Of a DNA stretch of 64,000 nucleotides, positions 26,889 to 45,404 are shown one piece after another (position 1 is the first letter of the stretch; each line of letters starts with the position of its first letter). The translations under genes were made by a program, and so were the position numbers. The notes under the pieces are model-generated. The model ran no database searches. It was not told the origin of the DNA and saw nothing but the letters and a program-made list of their open reading frames with translations. The DNA lies in the NCBI RefSeq assembly GCF_024320785.1, contig NZ_JANDBC010000001.1, positions 1,680,001-1,744,000 on the forward strand, read 5' to 3'. The stretch comes from Gracilimonas sediminicola (GTDB lineage Bacteria > Bacteroidota > Rhodothermia > Balneolales > Balneolaceae).

Positions 26889-27908
26889 TTGAACATTAAA
26901 GATACGTTAATATCAGCCCTGCAAGGGGATAAGCATTCAATTAACAGGTTGTGCGATCATTTCAGGCGTATATCTGTTGCTTACCTGCGGACAAAAGCCA
27001 ACCGTAATAACTTGCTGCTAAGTCATCTATACAAGAATATTGATGACCTTGCCCTTGACTGTATTGCGGATTTATTTGGTCAGGAGGGGGACTGTCTTTC
27101 GCAAATCGAAGGATATCTGGATGACACTGAAATTGAAAAATTAAAAGAAAGTGAAGTAGCTACGAAGCTTCGGAGACTAATTTTCAGCAAAGTGAACGAA
27201 GGGCTCTACAGAAACTACCGCAACTTCGATCCCTCCCTTTCAAAAATCATAAGGAACTTGAAACGGACCCTTGATGAAGGAAAAGTGGAGGGGGCTCGAT
27301 ACGATTCCAACACAGGTGATATTGAGTTTGAAGAAAAGGACAAGCCGCGAGCCAATATGCCGGAAGAAATCTTAGAGATAAAACTCTCCTCTGCCTTATC
27401 AAGAATTAGCAATACGGTCGATGCCGTTCAGGAGCTTAAAAACATCCTGATAGAAGAACGGGAATACTCCTCAAAAGTATCTCTGGTAAGCTTTGCGGTT
27501 ATACTTCGAAAATCATTCGCCTATCGCCTGGAAATGGAAGAAAAGGATAAGCTCGGAAATAGCATGTCTCTTTATAAAGAGCGTGAGCTTCATACGTTCA
27601 TAAAGAATTGTATAGCAACAGAAAGGGTACAGCTTTTTCAAACATATGTCAGCTCTGGAAAAATTAACGAAAAGCATTTTGAGAAATATCTGTTGGTTGT
27701 GAAGGATATACTCGTCGCCGATTTTATTAAGCATTCACCAAGAGAAGGATATTTCGAACATTTTGAGTTTTATTTTCCTGAAATTTCCTATGAAAGGTAC
27801 CGTGATGAATACCGGAAAATCATCGAGTACATGGCAAAAGGCATCAGGCAACGGTTGCTTCTTGTTCTTAAAAATGAGGAAAATTTCAGCAAGTTTGATC
27901 TTTGGTGA
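26889..27908 (+). CDS. Sigma-factor-like regulatory protein (putative)
   Basis: This 339-residue soluble protein starts with TTG at 26889. The N-terminal 60 residues (ISALQGDKHSINRLCDHFRRISVAYLRTK ... IDDLALDCIADLF) resemble region 2 of ECF sigma factors, where a short helix of the type 'ALxGDxxAFxxLYxxY' precedes a DLxQxVF-like core-binding helix. The stretch EVATKLRRLIFSKVNEGLYRNYRNF could correspond to region 2.3-2.4. No clear region 4 helix-turn-helix is seen; the C-terminal half is helical and unique to me. The next gene starts 47 bases downstream, and the S16-protease membrane protein follows. I treat a transcriptional role as a hypothesis. Confidence 0.7.
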   Translation: MNIKDTLISALQGDKHSINRLCDHFRRISVAYLRTKANRNNLLLSHLYKNIDDLALDCIADLFGQEGDCLSQIEGYLDDTEIEKLKESEVATKLRRLIFSKVNEGLYRNYRNFDPSLSKIIRNLKRTLDEGKVEGARYDSNTGDIEFEEKDKPRANMPEEILEIKLSSALSRISNTVDAVQELKNILIEEREYSSKVSLVSFAVILRKSFAYRLEMEEKDKLGNSMSLYKERELHTFIKNCIATERVQLFQTYVSSGKINEKHFEKYLLVVKDILVADFIKHSPREGYFEHFEFYFPEISYERYRDEYRKIIEYMAKGIRQRLLLVLKNEENFSKFDLW

Positions 27909-27955
27909 GGATATGGAAAATAGAAACAGAGTTGTGCTCAGATAAATAATAAGCA

Positions 27956-28720
27956 GTGTCAAAAATAGACGAATATAAAATTGAACAGTATATCCGTTTT
28001 GCTGAAGAGCTGACCGAAGAAGAAAAGAACGAGGTTGAGCGCCTCATTGAAACGTCAGACGAGATGCAGGCCATATATCTGTTTCTTAAGCAATTTTATG
28101 AAGAGTTCGATAAGGCATCAAGGGTATCCAAGGCAGTAATTCCGTTAACATTATTACAGAAACACCAGCACTCCGGCCCGGTAGTATTAGCTGCTATGAC
28201 CAAAGAATCTTCGGCTTCCGGTCTTGTTACAAAAGCTACCTTGGTATCGGAAGAACGAAAAACGGTGGTACGAATTCTGGAAGATGAACAAAGCCATAGC
28301 CTTCAATTTCATGTGATAGGAAACCAGAAACAACCCAATAGTTATGTGATTTTGTCTCTTTTAAACCCTCAGGTTGACTTGGTAACAAATGAAAAAGGAA
28401 AGTTAAAAGGGGTACAAGAGCTTTCTGATATTGACTGGAGCACTGTCTCTACCCTGCTTCGTATTCCCGTTTTTAAGACTACAGTCCATCCGGGCATCTC
28501 CAATAAATCTTTCAATGTGAAAAATGAATCAGGGCAAGAAGTGGAAATTCAGAAGTATGATGAGCATGTCCAGATTAAGGTAAAGAACGAAGGGTCGGTT
28601 TTATCAAGGGTGTTAGTTGTGCAAGATAAATCCTCAGATTTGATCAAGATGTCAGGCCAGCCTATCAATTTTGAGCTTACCGATCCGCACTCAAAAGCAC
28701 ATCTATATTTTTATGAGTGA
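27956..28720 (+). CDS. Companion protein of the sigma-like gene; possible anti-sigma role
   Basis: This 254-residue protein starts with GTG at 27956. Residues 1-55 are acidic and helical (EQYIRFAEELTEEEKNEVERLIETSDEM...), reminiscent of the N-terminal helices of anti-sigma factors. The rest is predicted beta-rich (TKATLVSEERKTVVRILEDE, KSFNVKNESGQEVEIQKYD), ending HLYFYE. There is no signal peptide and no transmembrane segment, so if it does bind the sigma-like protein it does so in the cytosol. It lies between the sigma-like gene and the membrane S16 gene, with two palindromic elements downstream. Conserved function unknown. Confidence 0.7.
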   Translation: MSKIDEYKIEQYIRFAEELTEEEKNEVERLIETSDEMQAIYLFLKQFYEEFDKASRVSKAVIPLTLLQKHQHSGPVVLAAMTKESSASGLVTKATLVSEERKTVVRILEDEQSHSLQFHVIGNQKQPNSYVILSLLNPQVDLVTNEKGKLKGVQELSDIDWSTVSTLLRIPVFKTTVHPGISNKSFNVKNESGQEVEIQKYDEHVQIKVKNEGSVLSRVLVVQDKSSDLIKMSGQPINFELTDPHSKAHLYFYE

Positions 28721-29279
28721 GGTGACAGGGAGGTCGGGTTTAGGGCTTTGAGTTATGTACTTACCAAAATGAAATTTAGAAAAGAACAAGATGCGTTATA
28801 CAGCTGAAACCTTAGCTATCGACCTCCTCTGTCTCCTCTTTGGTAAGGAGGAGGACGTGTTGGTAAGCATTTTAGTATGAATAGAAGTAAAAGTTATTAC
28901 ACACTTCGAATTAAGCCTCTCCTTGCGAAGGAGAGGTTCGGTGAGGTCGAAGTGTGGGGCTTTGAATTCCGAACCATACAAAATGAAATTTTAGAAACGA
29001 AAAAGATGCGTTATACAAATGAGCCCTTAGCTATCGACCTCTTCTGTCTTCTCCTTCAACAAGGAGAAGGACGCGTTTATGAAATTTAAAACCATGAAAA
29101 GGTATCAGATCTACTAACAACCCAGAACAAAGTCTCTCCTTGTGAAGGAGTCCCGATTCTCGGGAAGGTGAGCTCGGTAGTATAGGTTTGGGATTTTAGA
29201 TAACAGCTAATTATCAAGCCATTGAAAGAACGATTACAATTCAACAGTTACTCGGAAACTTAAAATACCCAAAGCAACA
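28721..29279 (+). repeat. Two palindromic CGACCTC-family elements in a 559-bp intra-operon gap
   Basis: Elements lie at 28820-28949 (130 bp) and 29035-29177 (143 bp). Each starts CGACCTC and ends GAGGTCG or a degenerate form, with inner hairpins around CTCCTT...AAGGAG. The DNA between and around them (AAAATGAAATTTTAGAAA.., GATGCGTTATAC) is also repeated at both copies. The orientation is that of plus-strand transcription. No gene is supported here. Confidence 0.8.
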
Positions 29280-31472
29280 TTGGACCCCTTAAAGATAGAA
29301 AAAGCTTTTGGTCGGTTAACGACAGAAATTAAGCGCGCAGGTTCTGAACGTGTTCAGCTTTTTCTTATCTACGAGTTCATGAATGCCTTGAAAGGTGACT
29401 ATCAGACCTTTGACAGCTACCTGATTCAATTATTCGCCCTATTTCCTGCTCTTGAGCATCCATTACTATTCACAGGATTGCACCCGGCTGAATTAGAGGA
29501 AATCATTTCAACCTGTGAAGAGGTGATTGGAGCCATTCCGGAACTGAAAGGCAATGAAATTGATCACAAGATTAACCTTTTAAAAACAGGGTTACACCAC
29601 ATTTATGACTGGCTTGGGGTTAGTCATATTGAAAAAGATAACAGGCTTCCTTCTCTTTCGGGTTTGTCAAAAAAAGGGAATGACAAGACTTACGGAGAAG
29701 TATTTATTCCGGTAGTTGAAACCTCAGGAATGGCTGAAGCAAAAGGACGTCTTAGAAAACTCAGGGTTGATGTGGTCGGAAAATCAAAGAAAAAGAAATT
29801 TGAGCTTCGTCCCGTGTTTGGTGTGATTGGGGCAAATGCAGGAAATTTAGGTGATAAGCCGGCGAAAGCAGCCGGTAAGCTGTTGGTCGAGAGTGTTAAC
29901 ACTAAAAACTATTGGAGCGGAACGGCCAGTTTTGAACTAAGTCACACCTGGCACGCAGGGAATTCAGCAAATCTGGCGTTGGGTGGATTATTCTATTGTG
30001 AGATGCTGAAAGCAGAAAACCGGCGGGAATATTTTCAGCTTAATCCGGGAATTGCCATAACCGGAGATATAAATGAGTTGGGGCAAGTATTGCCCGTTGA
30101 TGAGGAATCCCTGAAACAAAAAGCCGAAGCTGCTTTTTTTTCGTGGGCCCAGGTACTGGTGGTTCCGGTACAGCAGCTGGAAACGGTACTGGAATTAGTG
30201 GACGATTTACAGAAAGAATATCCGAGCAGAGATGTGGTGGTGAAAGGAATCGGAGAGCTTAGGGAGCTTTTTTATGACCGAAGGGTCACACTTCATAAAC
30301 AGATATCAATTATAGAACACACGGCTAAAAAGGTTTGGATGAAAAGAAATAGTACACTAGCCGTATTTGTGGTTCTGGTACTGCTTGGAGTGATTGGAAA
30401 GTTAATTTATGGTCCATTAGATAAGAACCCAACAGCCGTACAGTTTGATGGAAACGTAATGAAGATTATGAATGATGCCGGAGTTCAACTGATAGAAATA
30501 GAAATCGGCGATTACTCGGTTTACTTTGAACATTATCTGCCATCTGATCGGGAGAACATCGTGAGTCTGATTGATGCAAACGGGGATGGGCAGAATGAAA
30601 TCCTGTGGACGAGTTATCACGGACCGGGATTTGGAAGACAAAAGTTAGTGCTGGGAACGGTTGATGGAGATACACTGTGGACTTTTGAACACTCTGAAAC
30701 ATTTGATTACGAATTTCACCCATACACAAATACGGGCAAGCAATTTATAGAATTAATTCAGGGTGAAGATTTAGATCAGGATGGTGTAGAAGAGGTTATT
30801 ATTTCTACTCGCCATGTAGATTACTTCCCTTCTTTTTTGTTGGTTTTAGATTCAGAAACCGGAAGAATTAAAAAGAAATATTTGCATGCCGGATCCATCC
30901 ATGAAGTGCTGGTGAAGAATGTTGATGAGGACATTGAACAAGAGCTTATTATTGGTGGGTTAAATAATTCACTCAAAAAAGCATTTGTCAGTATTTTGGA
31001 CTACGATTACATATTTGGACAGGGAGCATCTACAGAGCGATATAAAACCAAAGGCTATAAAAACGCAGTGGAAATGCTGTATGTATTATTTCCTAAAACA
31101 TTGCCTGTTGAAACCAGTGGAGGGCGAAGGGGGTTTGAGACGGATTTATACCATATATCTGAAACAGGTGATAATGGGTTGAGAGTCGCAATCGCTGAAA
31201 CCCATCATTTGAATAATAAAAGAACAGAGAATAATGCGCAGGTATTCTATTTATTTGATGAATCTTTTAAAGTTAGTAGTGTTGGCAGCACTGATATTTA
31301 TGATGCGTATGCCCGAGATATTTATGAAAGCGGACAAACGGATATCCTTGCTGATGGCAAGTACCTGGAATCCTTCAAAGACTCCCTTCTCTACTGGAAC
31401 GGCGAAAGCTTCCAATATGAGCCTACTATAAATAAAGAATACCTGCGAGCGATCGGGGAATTAGAAGAGTAA
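29280..31472 (+). CDS. Membrane-anchored Lon-like (S16) protease with FG-GAP-like exterior
   Basis: This 730-residue protein starts with TTG at 29280. Residues 1-130 are helical. Residues about 178-330 resemble the Lon proteolytic domain: AGNSANLALGG carries a likely nucleophile S229 at the place of Lon's DGPSAG Ser, and ITGDINELGQVLPVDEESLKQKAEAAF carries K279 where Lon has VLPIGGLKEK. The spacing of 50 residues is close to Lon's 43. One transmembrane helix follows (about 358-378). The remaining 350 residues contain Asp-rich turns like FG-GAP/VCBS repeats (DANGDGQNE, DLDQDGVEE). The Lon-like domain thus faces the cytosol and the repeats the exterior. There is no AAA+ ATPase module. Together with the sigma-like and companion genes it may relay an outside signal by proteolysis; that role is inference. 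Confidence 0.8.
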   Translation: MDPLKIEKAFGRLTTEIKRAGSERVQLFLIYEFMNALKGDYQTFDSYLIQLFALFPALEHPLLFTGLHPAELEEIISTCEEVIGAIPELKGNEIDHKINLLKTGLHHIYDWLGVSHIEKDNRLPSLSGLSKKGNDKTYGEVFIPVVETSGMAEAKGRLRKLRVDVVGKSKKKKFELRPVFGVIGANAGNLGDKPAKAAGKLLVESVNTKNYWSGTASFELSHTWHAGNSANLALGGLFYCEMLKAENRREYFQLNPGIAITGDINELGQVLPVDEESLKQKAEAAFFSWAQVLVVPVQQLETVLELVDDLQKEYPSRDVVVKGIGELRELFYDRRVTLHKQISIIEHTAKKVWMKRNSTLAVFVVLVLLGVIGKLIYGPLDKNPTAVQFDGNVMKIMNDAGVQLIEIEIGDYSVYFEHYLPSDRENIVSLIDANGDGQNEILWTSYHGPGFGRQKLVLGTVDGDTLWTFEHSETFDYEFHPYTNTGKQFIELIQGEDLDQDGVEEVIISTRHVDYFPSFLLVLDSETGRIKKKYLHAGSIHEVLVKNVDEDIEQELIIGGLNNSLKKAFVSILDYDYIFGQGASTERYKTKGYKNAVEMLYVLFPKTLPVETSGGRRGFETDLYHISETGDNGLRVAIAETHHLNNKRTENNAQVFYLFDESFKVSSVGSTDIYDAYARDIYESGQTDILADGKYLESFKDSLLYWNGESFQYEPTINKEYLRAIGELEE

Positions 31473-31496
31473 GAACTGACTTTCTTTGATGCTTGA

Positions 31497-31529
31497 AGCC
31501 GAACTTTGTAAAAAGTTCGGCTTTTTTTC
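31497..31529 (+). terminator. Rho-independent terminator after the S16 gene
   Basis: The stem AGCCGAACTTT / AAAGTTCGGCT has a short loop and is followed by seven Ts. It separates the S16 gene from the secreted-protein operon, which begins at 31585. Confidence 0.85.
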
Positions 31530-31584
31530 TGCGGGAGATTCAATAGGCAATGATGCACTAACTAATGTGGTAATTGGGGAAATT

Positions 31585-34398
31585 ATGTCTATTAAATACT
31601 TTTTAAGCTTCTTTCTAGCATTATTGCTTTCATTTAGTGCTTACTCTCAATCTTTATATCAACTAGATCCAGAAACGGGAGTATACCTTCGGGAACTGAC
31701 GTTGATAGATGAAACAACAGGATTTTTAGTCGGGAATAGCGGGACAATGAAAATAACAAAAGATGCAGGAAGTAACTGGGAGCCTGTAAATTCACCTACT
31801 TCAGGCACTATTTGGGGGTCTTATTTTATTAACGATCAGATAGGATGGATAACGGGTGATAATGGGTATTACGCTAAAACAAGCGATGGTGGGAACACTT
31901 GGTCTCAATTAATTATTACCAGTGACAGTAACGAGCGCATAACAGACATAAAGTTTTTTGATGAAAATAAAGGGTATGCTTCAGGGTCTGATGGGCATTT
32001 ATTTTTCACAAATGATGGTGGGGAGACTTGGAACGAACGGTATTATGAAGCAAGCCTTTCGCCTATTTTTTTCAACTCTGTTTATATAAAATCGATCAAC
32101 GAAGTATTTACAGGGGCTGCCAATTCAAGAATTTTTCGAACAACTGATGGGGGTGTTTCTTGGGCTGAGGTTAATTATGTGTCAGGAGGTGAAGGAATCA
32201 ACAATTTCTATTTCATCGGGAATACCGGATATGCGGCCGGAGGTGAAGGACTAATACTTAAAACAACTAATGGTGGTAGTTCATGGTCCGACATTTCATA
32301 TCCTACAGATTCTGATCTCAGAGGGGTTTATTTCACAGATGCAAATGTGGGATATATATCTGGAAACGATGGTATACTATTAAAAACAACAAATGGCGGT
32401 TCCAGTTGGTCAGTCATAGATTTGGGTACAACAAATACTCTATATTTTTTAACAGGAATTAATTCGAATATCTATACGGGTGGGGCTTCAGGCACCCTAT
32501 TCTCTACAGTAGAGCCTGAGACTGTAGACATAACCTCAATTTCTGAAGCAAGATCATTGGCAGATAATTCTGTTGTTGGCACAGAAGGGGTGGTGACAAG
32601 GGTTCAGGGGAGCTATGCCAGAATTCAGGATGAAACAGCTGGAATTGCAATTTTCAATGAAAGCGGAGCTTTTCGTGATGCTATTACAAATGGACAAATT
32701 CAGAAGGGTGATTCACTAAGGATCATAGGGTTACTTCAAAACAACAAGGGACTGGCTGAAATAGCAGGAGAATTGGAGTTTGAAGTCTTATCAAGCGGAA
32801 ATGATTTGCCTATTGCCCAAGAGGTCACTTTAAATGAGTTGGGGCAAAATAGTGAGGAACTTGAAAGCAAAGTTATTCGTCTTACAGGGATTGGAATTAT
32901 AGAAACAGATGATCTCCTGTTTAACGAAAATGTATTCTATTCATCAACAGATAAATTTGGTGGAGTATCAGATGTTAAGATATATGTGGATGCCGAGGAA
33001 TCCGTGGATATTATTGGTTCAACGATTCCTGATCATGCGTTTACCTATACGGGAATTTTGAGTCAGTACGATACAACAGACAATAATGTCGGAGGATACC
33101 GACTTATACCGATTGAAGGTTCAGATATAGTTGAAGATACAGAACCTGCAACGGTAACTATTTCTTTTCCAGAATCCATATCAGATACGGTTGGAGCTGA
33201 CATTGAAATTCCGGTTACATTGGAGTTTGATAAAGCTGCCACATTCGAATCGTTCGAATTCAGCTTGTTATATAACCCTCAGGTCATGGATATATACGAA
33301 CTCTCAATGGACAGCTCGGTGATTGCTGACTTTGATACGATGGGTAACCGAAATCAAACCGGGAGTATTTTTTTTACAGGAGCAGGTTCAGAAGAAGTCT
33401 TTAATCCAGGGAACTTATTAACCTTAAAAGTAAAGTTGTTAGAACCTGGAGCTTCTGACCTCAGCTGGAATAGCTTATTTTTTAACGAGGGAGAACCGGT
33501 AGCAAATCCGGTAAATGGTACCGTTGAAGTAATGGATATTCCAAGAAAATGCGGGGATGTTACCAACGACGGCCAGGTAACCAACGAAGATGCCACCTGG
33601 ATTCTGCGGCATGGGGTGCGGTTGACGCCACAATTTCCTTTAGCTAATGAAGATTCCGTTTATGCTGATGTGACCGCTAATGGTTGGATTTCTTCCTATG
33701 ATGCCGCCCAGATTTTGAAAGATGTGGTACAGCTGGACCGTATTTTCAATTGTGCCGGGATAGCTTCAAAACAAGCTGAACCACTGATTGCTGATTGGAA
33801 CTGGCGCATAGTAGAACAGGAAAACGAGGTAACGATTCCACTTGAAATTGACATTTCAGCCGGTATGCTTGAGTCGGTAGACCTGGAAGTGAACATTCCA
33901 CATGGATACACATTTGAAGGGTTTAAAAACAAACAATCCGGATGGATGAACGCCATCAATCAAAGAGCTGGAAAGTTATATATCTCTATGATTGGCCTGG
34001 GTGAAGAAGAGAGAGCACAGCTTGGTGAATTGATATTTTCGGGAGATGGTTCGGTGTCTGATTTTACCGCAACCAGTAATTTAAACGAAGTGATAGCTTC
34101 TCAAATAGCCCCAACTAGTAGTTCTGAATTACCGGCTGAGTTTAAACTCTATCAAAACTACCCGAATCCCTTTAATCCAAAAACAACCATTCGATATGCC
34201 TTACCTGAACAGGGATTAGTGCAGCTGACCATTTATAATGCTTTAGGGCAGGAAGTAGCGCAGCTCGTAAATGAGATGAAGCCAACGGGGACTTATTCTG
34301 TGGTTTGGAATGCCGGTGATATGGCTAGTGGGGTGTATGTCTATAAAATTACTCTTGGGAATGCAGAGTTAACAAGAAAATTAATGCTAATTAAGTGA
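31585..34398 (+). CDS. Secreted cohesin/dockerin protein with YCF48-like repeats
   Basis: About 937 residues from an ATG at 31585, chosen because it opens a signal peptide (MSIKYFLSFFLALLLSFSAYSQ); the frame is open back to 31486 across the terminator. Order of domains: about six YCF48/Asp-box blades (30-310, motif T(S/N)DGGxTW), a DUF5689-like OB-fold region (312-510), a cohesin-like domain (519-645), dockerin-like paired calcium loops (653-725: DVTNDGQVTNEDA and DVTANGWISSYDA), a beta-sandwich and a C-terminal sorting tail (852-937, YQNYPNPFNP). A cohesin and a dockerin in one chain could allow self-assembly. It is the first of three secreted proteins spaced 7-10 bases apart. Confidence 0.92.
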   Translation: MSIKYFLSFFLALLLSFSAYSQSLYQLDPETGVYLRELTLIDETTGFLVGNSGTMKITKDAGSNWEPVNSPTSGTIWGSYFINDQIGWITGDNGYYAKTSDGGNTWSQLIITSDSNERITDIKFFDENKGYASGSDGHLFFTNDGGETWNERYYEASLSPIFFNSVYIKSINEVFTGAANSRIFRTTDGGVSWAEVNYVSGGEGINNFYFIGNTGYAAGGEGLILKTTNGGSSWSDISYPTDSDLRGVYFTDANVGYISGNDGILLKTTNGGSSWSVIDLGTTNTLYFLTGINSNIYTGGASGTLFSTVEPETVDITSISEARSLADNSVVGTEGVVTRVQGSYARIQDETAGIAIFNESGAFRDAITNGQIQKGDSLRIIGLLQNNKGLAEIAGELEFEVLSSGNDLPIAQEVTLNELGQNSEELESKVIRLTGIGIIETDDLLFNENVFYSSTDKFGGVSDVKIYVDAEESVDIIGSTIPDHAFTYTGILSQYDTTDNNVGGYRLIPIEGSDIVEDTEPATVTISFPESISDTVGADIEIPVTLEFDKAATFESFEFSLLYNPQVMDIYELSMDSSVIADFDTMGNRNQTGSIFFTGAGSEEVFNPGNLLTLKVKLLEPGASDLSWNSLFFNEGEPVANPVNGTVEVMDIPRKCGDVTNDGQVTNEDATWILRHGVRLTPQFPLANEDSVYADVTANGWISSYDAAQILKDVVQLDRIFNCAGIASKQAEPLIADWNWRIVEQENEVTIPLEIDISAGMLESVDLEVNIPHGYTFEGFKNKQSGWMNAINQRAGKLYISMIGLGEEERAQLGELIFSGDGSVSDFTATSNLNEVIASQIAPTSSSELPAEFKLYQNYPNPFNPKTTIRYALPEQGLVQLTIYNALGQEVAQLVNEMKPTGTYSVVWNAGDMASGVYVYKITLGNAELTRKLMLIK

Positions 34399-34405
34399 GT
34401 TCAAA

Positions 34406-37400
34406 ATGAAAAAGATAATAGGAATAATTCTATTCACACTTACATTTATTAGCCATTTATATGGATTTCAGAGCGATCCAGAAAAGCTGGTTGGAGAAAA
34501 CCTTATTAAAGGTTTTACAGAGCTTGCAAACCTAAGGGGGGGGACAAGAAATGATTATAATGGTCTTCAAGAATCATATTTAAATAAAAAAAAGGATCTC
34601 ATGAGAATGACTGCCTCAATCCCTGTAGAGTATGGAATAGGAGGTAGCATATCTATGTATATTGATCTGAATGACTATTACTCATCATATAACACTGAAA
34701 ACCCATTAACTTTGGAGGGTTCATTAGGATGGATAACGGTATGGGTTGATGCAAGGGTAAGTTTATCCGTTGGTGTAGAGGTCCCCTTAGGAATTGGTCT
34801 ATCGCAGGTAGAATTTGATGAAGGTAATGAAGATGCAAAAAGGCCAATGACAATAGGAACAATTTCAGGTACAATTCCCTTCTTACAAATTAATAGTTTT
34901 GATATTAATCTGAGAGAAAACTCGGCTGAGTTGTTCAATGTTGAGACTAATCCAGTAACTGAAATATCGCTTGAAGCGTTAAGTTTAAATGGAAATGTTC
35001 AAAGATTTGAAATTAAAAAGAATGTACTAGATGAGATAATTGGTACTGCAATTTTATCCTCTGCAAATAATCAAACTAATATCTTAAGTATTCTGCCAAC
35101 CAATTCTCAACAAGTATTTTTTAACGTATTAAGTAGTTTTTTTGAGTTTGAAGGTTGGAAAATCAAAGTTAAAGATTCGGTATACGAGATTTTTGATCAA
35201 GGTAGTTATAGAGAAATAACAACTTCTGATAATGCAACATCACCAGCAGAATATGATGGTTTAATAAATCACGCAAAAGGTGGAATGGATCTTGATAACG
35301 ATGGAGTACCTGATAATTATTATCCTATTATACCTTATGCTGAATTTCTTTATTGGTTTGGGGGAAACGGAGGATATAAATTTGATATAGATTTCAAGAA
35401 TACAGGAAATAATACTACAGATTTTGTAGTAAAAGTTGAGTCATTCCCAGATGGTTGGAATGTTGGTGCTGATGATGGAGATAACGTTACATCAAACATT
35501 GATAGAAAATTTAAAGTAATAGATGTTCTACCAAATGAATTAGCTTCTGTATATTTTCATATTGTTGTTTTTGGAGGTGCAGCAGAGAGTGGTGAAGTTA
35601 AGTTCGGTTTATATAAAGACGATTTATTTAACGAATTATTAGATGAAATAACAATAAAGGTATTTAGAGTAAATACCGTAAATAATGAACAGCCAACAAT
35701 TGTTTTAGAATCACCTGACCAAGATATTTATTTAAGTGATTCACAAGGAACTATTCCAATAACTTGGACTGATTTAGATAACGATGATAATGCTTTTGTT
35801 AACTTAGCATTAGACCCAGATATTGGAGATGATCCTTGGGAAGGAGAGGAAAATCATATTTGGATTGAAACGGGAATTGAAGAAAATAGTGAAATAGATA
35901 GTTTTGATTTTGAAACTCTAAACTTAGAAACAGGTGAATATAGCCTCTGGGGAGTGATTTTTGATGGTGTGAATGAGCCGGCATATTCTAAGGCACAAGG
36001 GATAGTTACCTTTGCTGACGAATTTGGCAAGTTTTCAATTCATCGCATTAACCAAGTTATAGGAGAATCGAATACTCCCTTCGATTTTGATATTAACTAT
36101 AAATCATATGTAAATCATAATAGAGATTTACACGATATAAACGTAGTAATTGGTGATAATGCTTACGATCTGGAGTCCGATGAGACTGACATACAAAATG
36201 GGATTACATATTCAATTGATGGATTGACTTTCCCGCAGGGTGAATATGAATATTATTTCACTTCTGAATATATGGGTGAGACTATTCGCTATCCTAAGGT
36301 TCAAAATTATACTTTTTCAGTTGGACAAAGTGCAGAAGGATACGATGTTGCAATGAGTGGGGCTTCTGGTTTTTCTCCCAGTCTACCTGATTTTGGGAAT
36401 AATATTAGTGTAGAAGCCTGGGTGAGTAATGAAGGGGTAGAGACCTACGACGAAGTGGAGGTGACAGTTCGGCTTGTAAACCCGAATGGCACCACCGAAG
36501 ATACTGATGCAGGGACAATTAGTAATTTACAACCTACCTATAATGAAAGTATTGATTTAAGTCTTACCATGCCATCAAATGGGTCTGATGGAACCTACCG
36601 GATTATATATACCGCTGATGGTGGGCTTGATGAAAATATTGATAATAACGTTTTTACAAAATCTTTTTACCTGGGGGAACTTTTGGGAACAGAAAGTTAC
36701 AGGGCAAAGAGTGATGAAGTTATCTATGATCAGGGGGATACATTTTCGATAAATGGGCATTCGTTTGAAATAACTTCAGTATCAGATGGCCAGGTGGTTT
36801 TTTTAAATAGTGGTGATCATGAAGATTTTTATAATGGGCAGATTGCGATTTATGATGACATTGACGTTGCCATTCATGTACAGGATGCATACTCATATTT
36901 TTATAATGGAGGATGGGTTGAGCAAGTAATACTAATACCCCTTGAATCGACTACAAGCGCTCCATCCTTTCCTGCTGAGAATTTATATTTCACTCAGGGC
37001 GAACAACACACAACAATTGTTCAACTACCTTCAGGTTATAATTATGATGAGTATCTGATTATAGATGAAGATGGTTATGAAGACGAAATTGATAGCTGGA
37101 TAGGCTCCATAAATGAGGTGTCTGGAAATCGGTTGGAAATTGTATGGGACATACCTTCAAATGAACCTATTGACAGGCATGAAATTTATTTTCAAACAGA
37201 GTACACTAATGCGAACAACATGTACAACAATGTGTACTTAAATATTGTTGCCCCTTCCCCAAATATTGAATCATTATCGAAAAATCAATTTTCAGCCGAT
37301 GATATCATTACTATTTCTGGTTCAAATTTTACATCAACACAAGGTACTGTAAAGTTTAATGAAGAAGAGGGTGATGTAAATTCTTGGAGTACTACTCAAA

Positions 37401-39346
37401 TTTCCGTTACAGTTCCGGAAGGAATTACGGATGGTGCGCTTTTGGTAAGGAATGCTAATGGTCCTAGTAATGCAAAATCTTACCAAGTTATAAGCAGTAC
37501 CGGAGATCCTATTGTCCAACAACGAATACCCAACCAAGTCATAAAAGCGGGGGATACTTTATATGTTGCCCAACTTGCTAATACCTTCAATGATCCCAAT
37601 GATGATAATTTAACCTATTCAAGCGAAGTAGATTCAGGGGTTGTAGTTCTTTCTTCTGACCTGGAAAATGGTGACCTAAGAATTGCTGCAGATAGTGGTG
37701 CTGCGGGTCTCTATTCAGTAATCATTTCCGCCACCGATGCCGATGCTGCTGTGGTATCGGATACTTTTTCTGTGGATGTTGAGAAACTAATTGATCCTTC
37801 TTTAGTTCCCACTCTAATATATCCGGCAAATAACGCCGTTGATATTCCATTGACCTTTAATTTTGAGTGGAGTTCAGCACCCAATGTGCTTTCCTATGAT
37901 TTTCAGGTGTCTGATACCTCTGATTTTTCAACCTATTTACTACTAGAAGAAAGTTTGACGGATACAACAATCACTTCCTCAGATCTTAGCTATAACGAGA
38001 ACTACTATTGGAGAGTAAGAGCAAACTTTGATGGTGAAGTAGGCGATTGGTCAGGTGCCTTTCAATTCTCAACGGAAGAATTGATTATTGAGCCTATTAC
38101 CGTCTATTTTGATTCTTTAAGTGGGTTTGTTAATTCAAATCTTCAGGTTCCTGTATACATTGGGGAAACCTCAAATCAATTTTTTGAGTCGTTTCATTTT
38201 GAGCTTGGCTTCGATCCGACCTTAATTGAATTTACTAGCCTGTTACAAGACTCAACCTTATCTGAAAGCTTTTCCGTCCAGCATAACATTTCAGAGCCGG
38301 GTCGTTTACTGGTTAATGGAGCTACTTCAGAAGCTGTGACGGGTTCCGGGAAATTGATTACACTTAACTTCCAACTCACTAATGAAGGATCATCTAGTCT
38401 GAATTGGATTAGTTTTCATTTCAATGAAGGAAGCCCGGAGTCAAATCCTGTAAATGGCGACGTAGGTATATCAATACCACCCATAAATTGTGGAGACGTA
38501 TCAAATGATGGCACAGTCACTAATTTTGATGCCACAAAGGTTCTGCGCCATGTAGTAATGCTTGAGGAATTGGTTGGAGAAGACTCTGTGAGAGCGGATG
38601 TGACGGCAAATAGCTGGATCTCCTCCTATGATGCCTCACAAATACTAAAACATATTGTAGGGAAACCACACATCTTTAATTGTGGACAATCGAGTGCTAA
38701 ATGGGCTTATACTCCTGTTGAGGTTTCCTACGACTGGTTTATTGATAGTGAAAATAAGGAATCAACTACTTATCAGGTTCCAATCAACGTTATGTCTGAT
38801 CAAATAGTCGAGGCCGTTGATTTATCTATAGAGGTGTCTGAAGAAATTAAGTTCAAGGGCATAAGTAATACACAAGAAGGTTGGATGCTTTACACAAACA
38901 GAGTTGGGCAAGCGGTGTATGTTTCCCTTGTGGGTTCAGAAGCATTAGGAACGGATTTATTAGGAATAGCAGAGTTTGAAATTGAGCTGCCCGTTTCGCA
39001 TACGGTTTATCTTACAGGCGAAATCAAGGCCAATGACAATGAGGCTATTAAGTTAGGCCGACTAATTCTGCATGAAGTTCCCAGCGAATTCGCTTTAGCT
39101 CAGAATTATCCAAATCCTTTTAATCCTGTCACAAGAATCAAATACTCAGTTCCAAAGAAATCTGATGTTAAAATCGTTGTTTACAACCTCCTGGGTCAGG
39201 AAGTAGCAGAGTTGGTTAATGAGTCAAAAGACCCCGGAAATTATTCGGTTAGTTGGGACGCGTCAGCAAATGCAAGTGGGTTATATGTGTATAGATTGAT
39301 ATCTGGGTCAAATGTAATTACCAATCGAATGATCCTTATTAAGTAA
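34406..39346 (+). CDS. Giant secreted protein with CARDB, IPT/TIG, cadherin-like, FN3, cohesin and dockerin domains
   Basis: This 1646-residue protein has signal peptide MKKIIGIILFTLTFISHLYGFQ. The first 430 residues resemble no family I recognise; they include a Ca-loop-like DLDNDGVPDNYYP. CARDB-like (about 645-750), IPT/TIG (about 950-1035), cadherin-like (1040-1130) and FN3 (1135-1225, ENYYWRVRANFDG) domains follow. A cohesin-like domain (about 1228-1358), dockerin-like loops (1360-1430: DVSNDGTVTNFDA, DVTANSWISSYDA) and the sorting tail (1561-1646, QNYPNPFNP) complete the protein. The first half is visibly more AT-rich than flanking genes, suggesting recent acquisition. It is the second gene of the operon, seven bases after the first. 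Confidence 0.92.
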   Translation: MKKIIGIILFTLTFISHLYGFQSDPEKLVGENLIKGFTELANLRGGTRNDYNGLQESYLNKKKDLMRMTASIPVEYGIGGSISMYIDLNDYYSSYNTENPLTLEGSLGWITVWVDARVSLSVGVEVPLGIGLSQVEFDEGNEDAKRPMTIGTISGTIPFLQINSFDINLRENSAELFNVETNPVTEISLEALSLNGNVQRFEIKKNVLDEIIGTAILSSANNQTNILSILPTNSQQVFFNVLSSFFEFEGWKIKVKDSVYEIFDQGSYREITTSDNATSPAEYDGLINHAKGGMDLDNDGVPDNYYPIIPYAEFLYWFGGNGGYKFDIDFKNTGNNTTDFVVKVESFPDGWNVGADDGDNVTSNIDRKFKVIDVLPNELASVYFHIVVFGGAAESGEVKFGLYKDDLFNELLDEITIKVFRVNTVNNEQPTIVLESPDQDIYLSDSQGTIPITWTDLDNDDNAFVNLALDPDIGDDPWEGEENHIWIETGIEENSEIDSFDFETLNLETGEYSLWGVIFDGVNEPAYSKAQGIVTFADEFGKFSIHRINQVIGESNTPFDFDINYKSYVNHNRDLHDINVVIGDNAYDLESDETDIQNGITYSIDGLTFPQGEYEYYFTSEYMGETIRYPKVQNYTFSVGQSAEGYDVAMSGASGFSPSLPDFGNNISVEAWVSNEGVETYDEVEVTVRLVNPNGTTEDTDAGTISNLQPTYNESIDLSLTMPSNGSDGTYRIIYTADGGLDENIDNNVFTKSFYLGELLGTESYRAKSDEVIYDQGDTFSINGHSFEITSVSDGQVVFLNSGDHEDFYNGQIAIYDDIDVAIHVQDAYSYFYNGGWVEQVILIPLESTTSAPSFPAENLYFTQGEQHTTIVQLPSGYNYDEYLIIDEDGYEDEIDSWIGSINEVSGNRLEIVWDIPSNEPIDRHEIYFQTEYTNANNMYNNVYLNIVAPSPNIESLSKNQFSADDIITISGSNFTSTQGTVKFNEEEGDVNSWSTTQISVTVPEGITDGALLVRNANGPSNAKSYQVISSTGDPIVQQRIPNQVIKAGDTLYVAQLANTFNDPNDDNLTYSSEVDSGVVVLSSDLENGDLRIAADSGAAGLYSVIISATDADAAVVSDTFSVDVEKLIDPSLVPTLIYPANNAVDIPLTFNFEWSSAPNVLSYDFQVSDTSDFSTYLLLEESLTDTTITSSDLSYNENYYWRVRANFDGEVGDWSGAFQFSTEELIIEPITVYFDSLSGFVNSNLQVPVYIGETSNQFFESFHFELGFDPTLIEFTSLLQDSTLSESFSVQHNISEPGRLLVNGATSEAVTGSGKLITLNFQLTNEGSSSLNWISFHFNEGSPESNPVNGDVGISIPPINCGDVSNDGTVTNFDATKVLRHVVMLEELVGEDSVRADVTANSWISSYDASQILKHIVGKPHIFNCGQSSAKWAYTPVEVSYDWFIDSENKESTTYQVPINVMSDQIVEAVDLSIEVSEEIKFKGISNTQEGWMLYTNRVGQAVYVSLVGSEALGTDLLGIAEFEIELPVSHTVYLTGEIKANDNEAIKLGRLILHEVPSEFALAQNYPNPFNPVTRIKYSVPKKSDVKIVVYNLLGQEVAELVNESKDPGNYSVSWDASANASGLYVYRLISGSNVITNRMILIK

Positions 39347-44092: not shown

Positions 44093-44149
44093 GGCGTCGG
44101 TTTATAAAGGGTTTCTTCCTTATTCAATTTACAGTAAAATCAATAGCTA

Positions 44150-44190
44150 ACGAGTCCTCCTCCTTATTGAGGAGGAGACAGAGGGGGTCG
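44150..44190 (-). repeat. Partial CGACCTC-family element
   Basis: Only the hairpin end (CTCCTCCTTATTGAGGAGGAG followed by GGGGTCG) is present. It is 86 bp from the next complete element, the same spacing as between the complete copies, so it is the truncated end of the array. Confidence 0.6.
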
Positions 44191-44276
44191 TAAGCTAAAG
44201 CTTAAGTTGTATAATTCATCTACATCGTTTCTTAAAATTCAATTACGGATAGTTCAGATCTCAAAGCCCCACACTC

Positions 44277-44410
44277 CGACCTCACCTAAATCCTCTCCTT
44301 CGCAAGGAGAGGACTTTGTTCGGGGTTGATAATGGTTTTGATGCTTTTTCATAGTTTAGAATTTTATCAACGCGTCTTTCTCCTTACCAAGGAGAAAACA
44401 AAAGAGGTCG
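44277..44410 (-). repeat. Complete CGACCTC-family element
   Basis: This is a 134-bp imperfect palindrome with ends CGACCTC and GAGGTCG and inner hairpins CTCTCCTTCGCAAGGAGAG and TCTCCTTACCAAGGAGA. It precedes the DUF559 gene region on the plus coordinate and belongs to the fadI-fadJ array. Confidence 0.8.
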
Positions 44411-44843: not shown

Positions 44844-45404
44844 CGACCTCTCTAAATCTCTCCTTCGCAAGGAGAGACTTTTTCCGGGCTTTATAATTGC
44901 TTCGATATCTATTCATAATTCTAAGTTTCATCAACGAGTCCTCATCCTTGTTAAGGAGGAGACAGAGGTGGTCGGTAGCTAAGGTTTGAGTTGTGTAATT
45001 CAGTTACTTCGTTCTTAAAATTCAATTACGGATAGTTCAGAACTCAAAGCCCCATACTTCGACCACACCAAACCTCTCCTTCGCAAGGAGAGGCTTATCC
45101 GGGGTGTATAATAATCTTGATACTTATTCATGGTTTTTAGATTTATCAACGAGTCCTCCTCCTTATGAAGGAGGAGACAGAGGAGGTCGATAGCTAAGGC
45201 TTCCATTGTATAATTCATTTACATCGTTCTTAAAATTCAATTACGGATAGTTCAGAACTCAAAGCCCCATACTTCGACCTCACCAAACCTCTCCTTCGCA
45301 AGGAGAGGCTTATTCGGGGTGTATAATAATCTTGATACTCATTCATGGTTATTTGGTTTATTAACGCGTCTTTCTCCTTGCCAAGGAGAAAACAAAAGAG
45401 GTCA
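44844..45404 (-). repeat. Three tandem CGACCTC-family elements with an approximately 215-bp period
   Basis: Elements lie at 44844-44974, 45060-45189 and 45275-45404, about 130 bp each, with starts 216 and 215 bp apart. The spacers of about 85 bp are themselves repeated (TTCTTAAAATTCAATTACGG and ACTCAAAGCCCCATACTTCG). Frames of about 67 residues inside the units are shadows of the repeat. No gene is supported between the DUF559 gene and fadI other than these repeats. Confidence 0.85.

Follow-up and report, generated by a model that had tools for sequence, protein, structure and literature searches.

Three consecutive plus-strand genes of Gracilimonas sediminicola appear, with modest confidence on our part, to form a transmembrane signalling system in which a propeller-gated S16 (Lon-type) domain would cut a soluble anti-sigma protein and so free a sigma-like protein. 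The genes lie in a window of 64,000 nucleotides, the whole stretch of DNA analysed here (contig NZ_JANDBC010000001.1, positions 1,680,001 to 1,744,000, in a genome of 3.57 Mb), and an earlier sequence-only reading had proposed them as a possible signalling cassette; its observation is confirmed, and its interpretation is partly supported. The first gene, P1 (26889-27908, + strand, start codon TTG), encodes a sigma-like protein of 339 amino acids with 41 aligned relatives; the second, P2 (27956-28720, + strand, start codon GTG), a soluble anti-sigma-like protein of 254 amino acids with 15 aligned relatives; and the third, P3 (29280-31472, + strand, start codon TTG), a predicted membrane S16 receptor protease of 730 amino acids, for which alignments of 18 and 45 rows were available. 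The three-gene set is patchy but widespread in Bacteroidota, and looks like a signalling chain controlling gene switching.

In the proposed chain, the propeller of P3 would sense something beyond the inner membrane and, through the one helix that is predicted to cross the membrane, would gate the S16 domain, a cytosolic domain without an ATPase (Ser229-Lys281) that would be the output of P3. P2 would be the soluble anti-sigma holding P1. An outside signal, possibly a ligand, would then activate the S16 domain, P2 would be cleaved, and the freed P1 would change transcription, perhaps including that of nearby secreted surface proteins. Computation supports the S16 fold with its dyad residues, the arrangement across the membrane, the gene linkage and the descent of the P2 head from an anti-sigma. 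The role of P2 as the substrate, the gating of the protease by the propeller and the choice of target genes are what we infer.

The S16 domain of P3

A template-free model of P3 was built from 14 rows (the window protein and sequences of related loci). Its mean pLDDT (predicted local distance difference test score) is 79, and about 86 over residues 141-340. According to the secondary structure of the model, the protein begins with a helical domain (residues 1-112; 29280-29615, + strand), and the S16 domain follows at residues 136-342 (29685-30305, + strand), on the evidence of structural matches, profile and hhalign. The model matches the human Lon proteolytic domain (a 185-residue chain) with a VIA Z score of 20.5 over 180 residues at 2.4 A, and Foldseek returned 195 matches at E 1e-3 or better, of which the best 50 are all Lon. 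The same family was found from the alignments: a profile of 45 P3 rows detected the Lon of Archaeoglobus fulgidus (E 1.2e-10) and Lon 2 of Bacillus subtilis (8dvh; E 1.1e-7) in the PDB, and hhalign aligned P3 to the Lon of the same genome (Prob 94, E 1.3e-7) with Ser on Ser and Lys on Lys. The S16 fold that had been suspected from the letters is therefore borne out by both the predicted model and the profile.

The predicted nucleophile, Ser229 (codon 29964-29966, + strand), is held by the motif AGNSANLAL, and the predicted general base, Lys281 (codon 30120-30122, + strand), by SLKQK, 52 residues downstream. The sequence-only reading had named the right block, with a spacing of 50 that needs this correction. 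In the 45-row alignment, A6, the residues Gly227, Ser229, Thr261, Gly262 and Lys281 are each invariant (45/45), and Ser229 and Lys281 are found in 18/18 rows of the smaller alignment, A3; both align with the Lon dyad. The other lysine of SLKQK, at position 279, is a lysine in only 10 of the 45 rows. Six sequences (L027:15275, L029:8949, L029:11318, L032, L033 and L034) are present only in A3, and the partial sequences L035 and L123 are in neither alignment.

Family models gave 12/45 matches to P3 rows both for NCBIfam lon_rel (LonB; best E 2.1e-7) and for PADLOC CARF_LON (best E 8.7e-7; the matching part of the protein is not resolved), and weak family-scan matches for the window P3 taken as a single protein. 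No AAA+ module was matched in the window P3 by Pfam or NCBIfam at E up to 1, in agreement with the earlier claim, and an ordinary ATP-dependent Lon was rejected because of this. Judged from the predicted model and the alignments, P3 has a genuine Lon proteolytic-domain fold with the dyad residues at the Lon positions, and it is a member of peptidase family S16 outside Lon proper.

Predicted membrane topology and outer propeller of P3

The window P3 has a single hydrophobic segment, at residues 358-376 (30351-30407, + strand; mean hydropathy 2.49), with five Lys/Arg residues in the 20 residues before it and two after it. Because this excess precedes the segment, the S16 domain is predicted to face the cytosol, with the Asp-rich DxNxD turns on the outer side, as had been supposed. 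The arrangement is conserved among the relatives: a hydrophobic segment lies C-terminal to the S16 domain in 45/45 rows, and the Lys/Arg excess is on the S16 side in all 39 rows that were scored at the post-S16 segment. Exactly one segment was found in 35/45 rows, and the hydropathy scan found a second one in the other 10.

The outer part, at residues 378-712 (30411-31415, + strand), is mostly beta in the model and is predicted to be an FG-GAP-like beta-propeller. FG-GAP_3 was matched at E up to 0.1 in 30 of the 45 relatives (best E 8.1e-9). The FG-GAP-like exterior of the sequence-only reading is supported in these relatives; the window protein itself stays below the curated Pfam cut-off for FG-GAP (E 0.0043). 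In the PDB, the propeller profile brushes propeller lectins and rhamnogalacturonan lyases, with no single stretch that passes, and these profile matches give no more than a hint of sugar binding.

Some loci have tandem P3 copies, in which the propeller is more divergent than the S16 domain in 5/5 pairs. A special diversification of the sensor in tandem copies was considered and rejected, since all 153 pairs behave alike on average (31.0 vs 39.2 percent).

Anti-sigma ancestry of the P2 head and the one-protein version

The loci examined elsewhere in the phylum include a second type of partner for P1. In these loci P1 is followed by a single protein of about 475-500 residues, which consists of a head with the motif H-x3-C-x2-C, a membrane segment and the same propeller. 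This one-protein version adjoins P1 in 10/10 aligned loci and has the zinc motif in 10/10; a membrane segment was detected in 9/10, and the Lys/Arg bias around it is not clear. When the profile of its head was compared with the PDB, RsiW (E 0.0054) and 3hug_B (E 0.023) were found, both ranked below two unrelated Cys-rich proteins, and the Pfam model zf-HC2 matched one of the ten heads. The one-protein version is laid out like a zinc-binding membrane anti-sigma, and through its presence in the phylum the propeller is directly linked to an anti-sigma.

The head of the window P2 (residues 1-53; 27956-28114, + strand) was aligned by hhalign to the heads of the one-protein version with Prob 95.7 and E 8.7e-9, compared with E 0.033-0.53 for 12 control pairs. 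The sequence-only reading had described an anti-sigma-like helical start and no membrane segment, and both descriptions stand: the hydropathy scan found no membrane segment in 15/15 aligned relatives of P2. The motif H-x3-C-x2-C is absent from the window P2 and present in 7/16 P2 rows of alignment A10, including intermediate lineages (six P2 rows of alignment A11 were selected for the motif, unlike the 10 rows of A7). As judged by these alignments, the P2 head descends from a zinc anti-sigma (ZAS) head whose zinc ligands have been lost in Balneolaceae. Because the P2 head aligns to the one-protein heads, we read the anti-sigma head and the sensor as one protein elsewhere and two proteins here, with the S16 domain replacing the head on the sensor. 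In the tree of 41 P1 rows, the three layouts need three changes, where the minimum is two and shuffled layouts average 13.6; the tree has several long branches, and the number of layout switches is not firm.

The one-protein version also bears on an alternative in which the S16-fold domain is non-proteolytic and serves as a switchable platform, binding or releasing P2 as the propeller changes shape. Such a platform would agree with the joining of the same kind of propeller to an anti-sigma head without any S16 domain. Moreover, Lon-fold domains without proteolysis exist, and the genome has two Lon_C matches besides Lon and P3, which from their sequences we take to be RadA and ComM, presumably both non-proteolytic. 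A pure platform would not need Ser229, Lys281 and Thr261, which are retained in every row across the phylum, and for this reason we consider it unlikely. A propeller-gated protease is the reading that we keep, although two observations tell against it: the block of the P3 model that contains Ser229 (residues 221-230) has a pLDDT of only 67, and one P3 copy in the family (L034:8248-9561, 438 residues) stops after the membrane helix and has no propeller.

Fold comparison of P1

P1 is the least secure part of this account. A model built from 10 rows (mean pLDDT 80) contains a sigma region 2-like domain at residues 1-114 (26889-27230, + strand), which was superimposed over 89 residues on 8x6f_E, 6uu7, 6uu9 and 8hkc_E, with a root-mean-square deviation (rmsd) of 2.6-2.8 and a VIA Z of 7.2-7.7. 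The 12 best VIA matches are all sigma factors, and they comprise about seven kinds: sigma-S, SigA, a WhiG complex, sigma-32, FliA, SigB and one titled RPSD, which we take to be sigma-D; within complexes, the matched chain was assumed to be the sigma factor from its length. Eight of the 12 are limited to about residues 1-114 (rmsd 2.6-3.3), and the other four (sigma-S and WhiG) span the whole chain with an rmsd of 12-23. In addition, hhalign aligned P1 to the genome's own sigma factors (16 of its 17 sigma open reading frames (ORFs), the set leaving out one of 447 residues) with E 0.015 and 0.010, ahead of five controls at 0.14-0.35.

A number of results weigh against a sigma factor. The VIA Z scores of the 12 best matches are 6.4-8.1, and values below about 13 can arise by chance for helical models; Foldseek found no match for the P1 model at E 1e-3; Pfam sigma models matched 0/41 P1 rows at E up to 0.1; three NCBIfam sigma models matched one P1 row apiece, with E 0.023-0.051; no sigma chain was among the matches of the PDB profile search; and the hhalign probability for the P1-sigma alignments is 3-4 percent. 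Sigma region 4 is not established in P1. PADLOC gave only stray matches in the P1 set (three models, one row each). The likeness to region 2 that the sequence-only reading had noticed is indicated by the closest listed structures and by hhalign E values better than the controls, while the structural match lies below the safe level of the aligner for helical models and neither Pfam nor the hhalign probability supports it.

On the same evidence, P1 might be another helical regulator, not a sigma factor, held by the anti-sigma-like head. The absence of Pfam sigma matches and the low Z scores fit this possibility, as do the VIA ranks 13-14, which are occupied by lambda Q on the C-terminal part of P1, and residues 115-339, most of which lack a placement on sigma at a good rmsd. 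Also in its favour, seven of 20 further P1 stretches are partnerless, as described below. What makes us regard it as improbable, about as much so as the platform, is that a dozen sigma factors of such varied kinds head the list, and that the partner proteins of P1 bear ZAS heads, one profile of which matches RsiW. ZAS heads are sigma binders. We read P1 as a sigma factor by fold comparison alone; the routes by sequence gave no proof. The model points, short of proof, to a divergent member of the sigma70 family in which region 2 is present. Automatic annotation may here be missing a family of sigma-like proteins.

Distribution and linkage of the three genes

Relatives of P3 were found in 16/92 genomes of the family, 19/128 of the order, 36/244 of the class and 50/395 sampled in the phylum; these genome samples overlap, and the phylum count takes in proteins that have the propeller alone in common. 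The named carriers of the locus are Balneolaceae, including Gracilimonas, Balneola and Rhodohalobacter (10 loci). P3 is patchy even within the genus, where it is present in 4/10 genomes, the window's own genome counted. Among the 16 family genomes bearing P3, 14 have P1, P2 and P3 on the same strand and in the same order, and the three genes do co-occur in relatives, as the sequence-only reading required; the remaining two have a 4.4-kb contig with P2-P3 only and a P3 remnant match only. In the phylum sample, the P1 profile was positive in 53 genomes and the P3 profile in 50, with 49 genomes common to both (Fisher p 1e-56, to be taken only as a guide, the genomes being related).

A chance arrangement, in which an S16-like membrane protein with FG-GAP happens to lie next to genes unrelated to it, has nothing to support it except the enlarged P2-P3 gap in the window. 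It is already contradicted by the linkage in relatives and by the 49 shared genomes, and can practically be dismissed.

Beyond the family the linkage is looser, and P1 was found in 21/30 P3-bearing stretches. Two sets of counts are unfavourable to the proposed chain: no P1 was found in 9/30 P3 stretches outside the family (one of them a 3-kb contig), and 20 stretches around further P1 copies included four with P2, five with the one-protein version, four with a short P2-like ORF and seven without a partner. Two of these seven are at contig ends, and the four short P2-like ORFs were seen by eye and matched by no profile. The P3 stretches without P1 lend some support to another explanation, in which the S16 domain would cleave itself or another effector protein, with an indirect response from P1-P2. 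This we hold to be less likely still than a non-proteolytic platform, in view of the constant order of the trio in the family and of a P2 head of the very kind that is fused to the same propeller elsewhere. Cleavage of P2 by P3 remains our preferred reading.

Variants of the locus were also observed. In one family genome a P1-P2 pair has no P3 nearby (L141:5238-7121), and five P1 relatives (L142, L144, L145, L149 and L159) have no recognised P2, P3 or one-protein neighbour. Another genome (L109) has two full trios whose P1 genes are divergent, and the P1 at L127:8886-9878, divided between two ORFs, is probably a broken copy. Tandem P3 copies lie by a single P1-P2 pair in L023 (two), L027 (two) and L029 (three), which suggests that a single switch may receive input from several sensors. 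The stretch L114 contains a single P1 with four P3 copies.

The P2-P3 gap and the downstream secreted genes

The gap between P2 and P3 in the window (28721-29279) owes its enlargement to a dispersed repeat; the corresponding gap measures 8-120 nt in 10 other loci of the family. The window's gap contains two copies of the repeat at a spacing of roughly 215 nt, and 11 places in the genome match it at 73-100 percent, itself included. The same repeat was also seen in the window at 44149-44410 and 44860-45281.

Downstream of the trio, the stem scan found an intrinsic terminator with a 13-pair stem followed by a T run (31495-31524, + strand; folding z -4.34 for 31476-31540). Terminator-like sites over the whole region are at shuffle level (6 vs 5.3), and this stem is the longest of them. 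It is followed by two genes for secreted proteins, both candidate targets of the chain. By the domain scan, the first (31585-34398, + strand) has a signal-peptide-like start, cohesin, dockerin and a type IX secretion system (T9SS) sorting tail, and the second (34406-39346, + strand) has TIG, cohesin, dockerin and a T9SS sorting tail. Because the terminator lies between them, the trio and the secreted genes are not one operon by present evidence, and the gene at 31585 is probably a separate transcription unit.

Of 34 complete, non-core ORFs lying immediately after a P3 or one-protein gene on the same strand, 10 have sorting tails, compared with 20/402 other non-core ORFs in the loci (Fisher p 2e-5). 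This enrichment is suggestive only, because the 26 seeds of the sorting-tail profile came from the same related loci and the 402 ORFs include unverified ones from 90 residues up. In some relatives, the downstream genes encode carbohydrate-binding, laminin-G or BACON domains (eight proteins scanned).

It counts against the proposed chain that a shared promoter motif was not found. The standard promoter scan gave 16 against a shuffle level of 17.9. The sequence AAGGGGT(T)A, which close relatives share upstream of P1, was considered as a sign of autoregulation and rejected, since the 14-mer has four matches in the genome and the control also has four.

Comparison with known systems

The domain comparison places P3 with Lon, LonB and LonC, with which it shares the proteolytic-domain fold, the Ser-Lys positions and the TG motif; unlike them, it has no AAA+ match, and C-terminal to its S16 domain come a membrane helix and an FG-GAP-like propeller. 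SepM and YlbL are membrane-attached S16 proteins without AAA+, and the S16 domain of SepM is outside the membrane and accompanied by a PDZ domain. The SepM model matched 2/45 P3 rows (best E 0.035), and in contrast to SepM the S16 domain of P3 is predicted to be inside. The heads of P2 and of the one-protein version resemble ZAS factors such as RsiW; unlike in these, the head of the window P2 sits on a soluble protein and its zinc ligands are missing.

Cellulosomes are cohesin/dockerin systems. In Clostridium thermocellum, sigma-I is reportedly paired with RsgI, a membrane anti-sigma with an outer sensor that controls cellulosome genes (PMC4711584, PMC12203970). RsgI itself is cut by membrane proteases, and the likeness of the targets, which is one of gene neighbourhood only, is a lead.

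Regulated cleavage of an anti-sigma usually proceeds via site-1 and site-2 membrane proteases. To our knowledge, a Lon-type protease in this role is known only from the CRISPR Calp system. The sequence-only reading had referred to a trio with a CHAT or caspase effector; none was noticed among the loci examined, where no search was aimed at such a trio. Another CRISPR-linked system reportedly involves a TPR-CHAT protease (PMC10028731).

The closest parallel in layout is CalpL/CalpT/CalpS of type III CRISPR in Sulfurihydrogenibium, where the activated Lon-type protease is reported to cut an anti-sigma and is thought to release an extracytoplasmic function (ECF) sigma factor (PMC11417357, PMC11229360). 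By analogy, the trio would have the same tripartite arrangement of Lon-type protease, anti-sigma and sigma(-like) protein. The switch differs, CalpL being described there as responding to cyclic tetraadenylate (cA4) via a SAVED domain, in place of which P3 has a membrane helix and an outer propeller. No SAVED domain was matched by Pfam in the window P3 or its relatives, and no CRISPR-like spaced repeats were found in the window. CalpL was not among the PDB profile matches (E up to 1) or the best 50 VIA matches listed, which is uninformative either way. No description of a Lon-type/propeller receptor with a sigma/anti-sigma pair was found in open-licence PMC papers, which does not exclude one elsewhere in print.

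The regulatory logic is already known from CRISPR Calp, and the receptor form appears new to us. It is possible, though here we lean towards doubt, that P3 represents a new receptor class: a single-pass, propeller-switched and ATPase-free Lon-fold protease that destroys an anti-sigma, frees a sigma70-like branch invisible to Pfam and governs cohesin/dockerin surface proteins across Bacteroidota. Calp-like logic appears here outside CRISPR and joined to an outer sensor, and there may be a wider scheme of which the CRISPR Calp cascade is one example.

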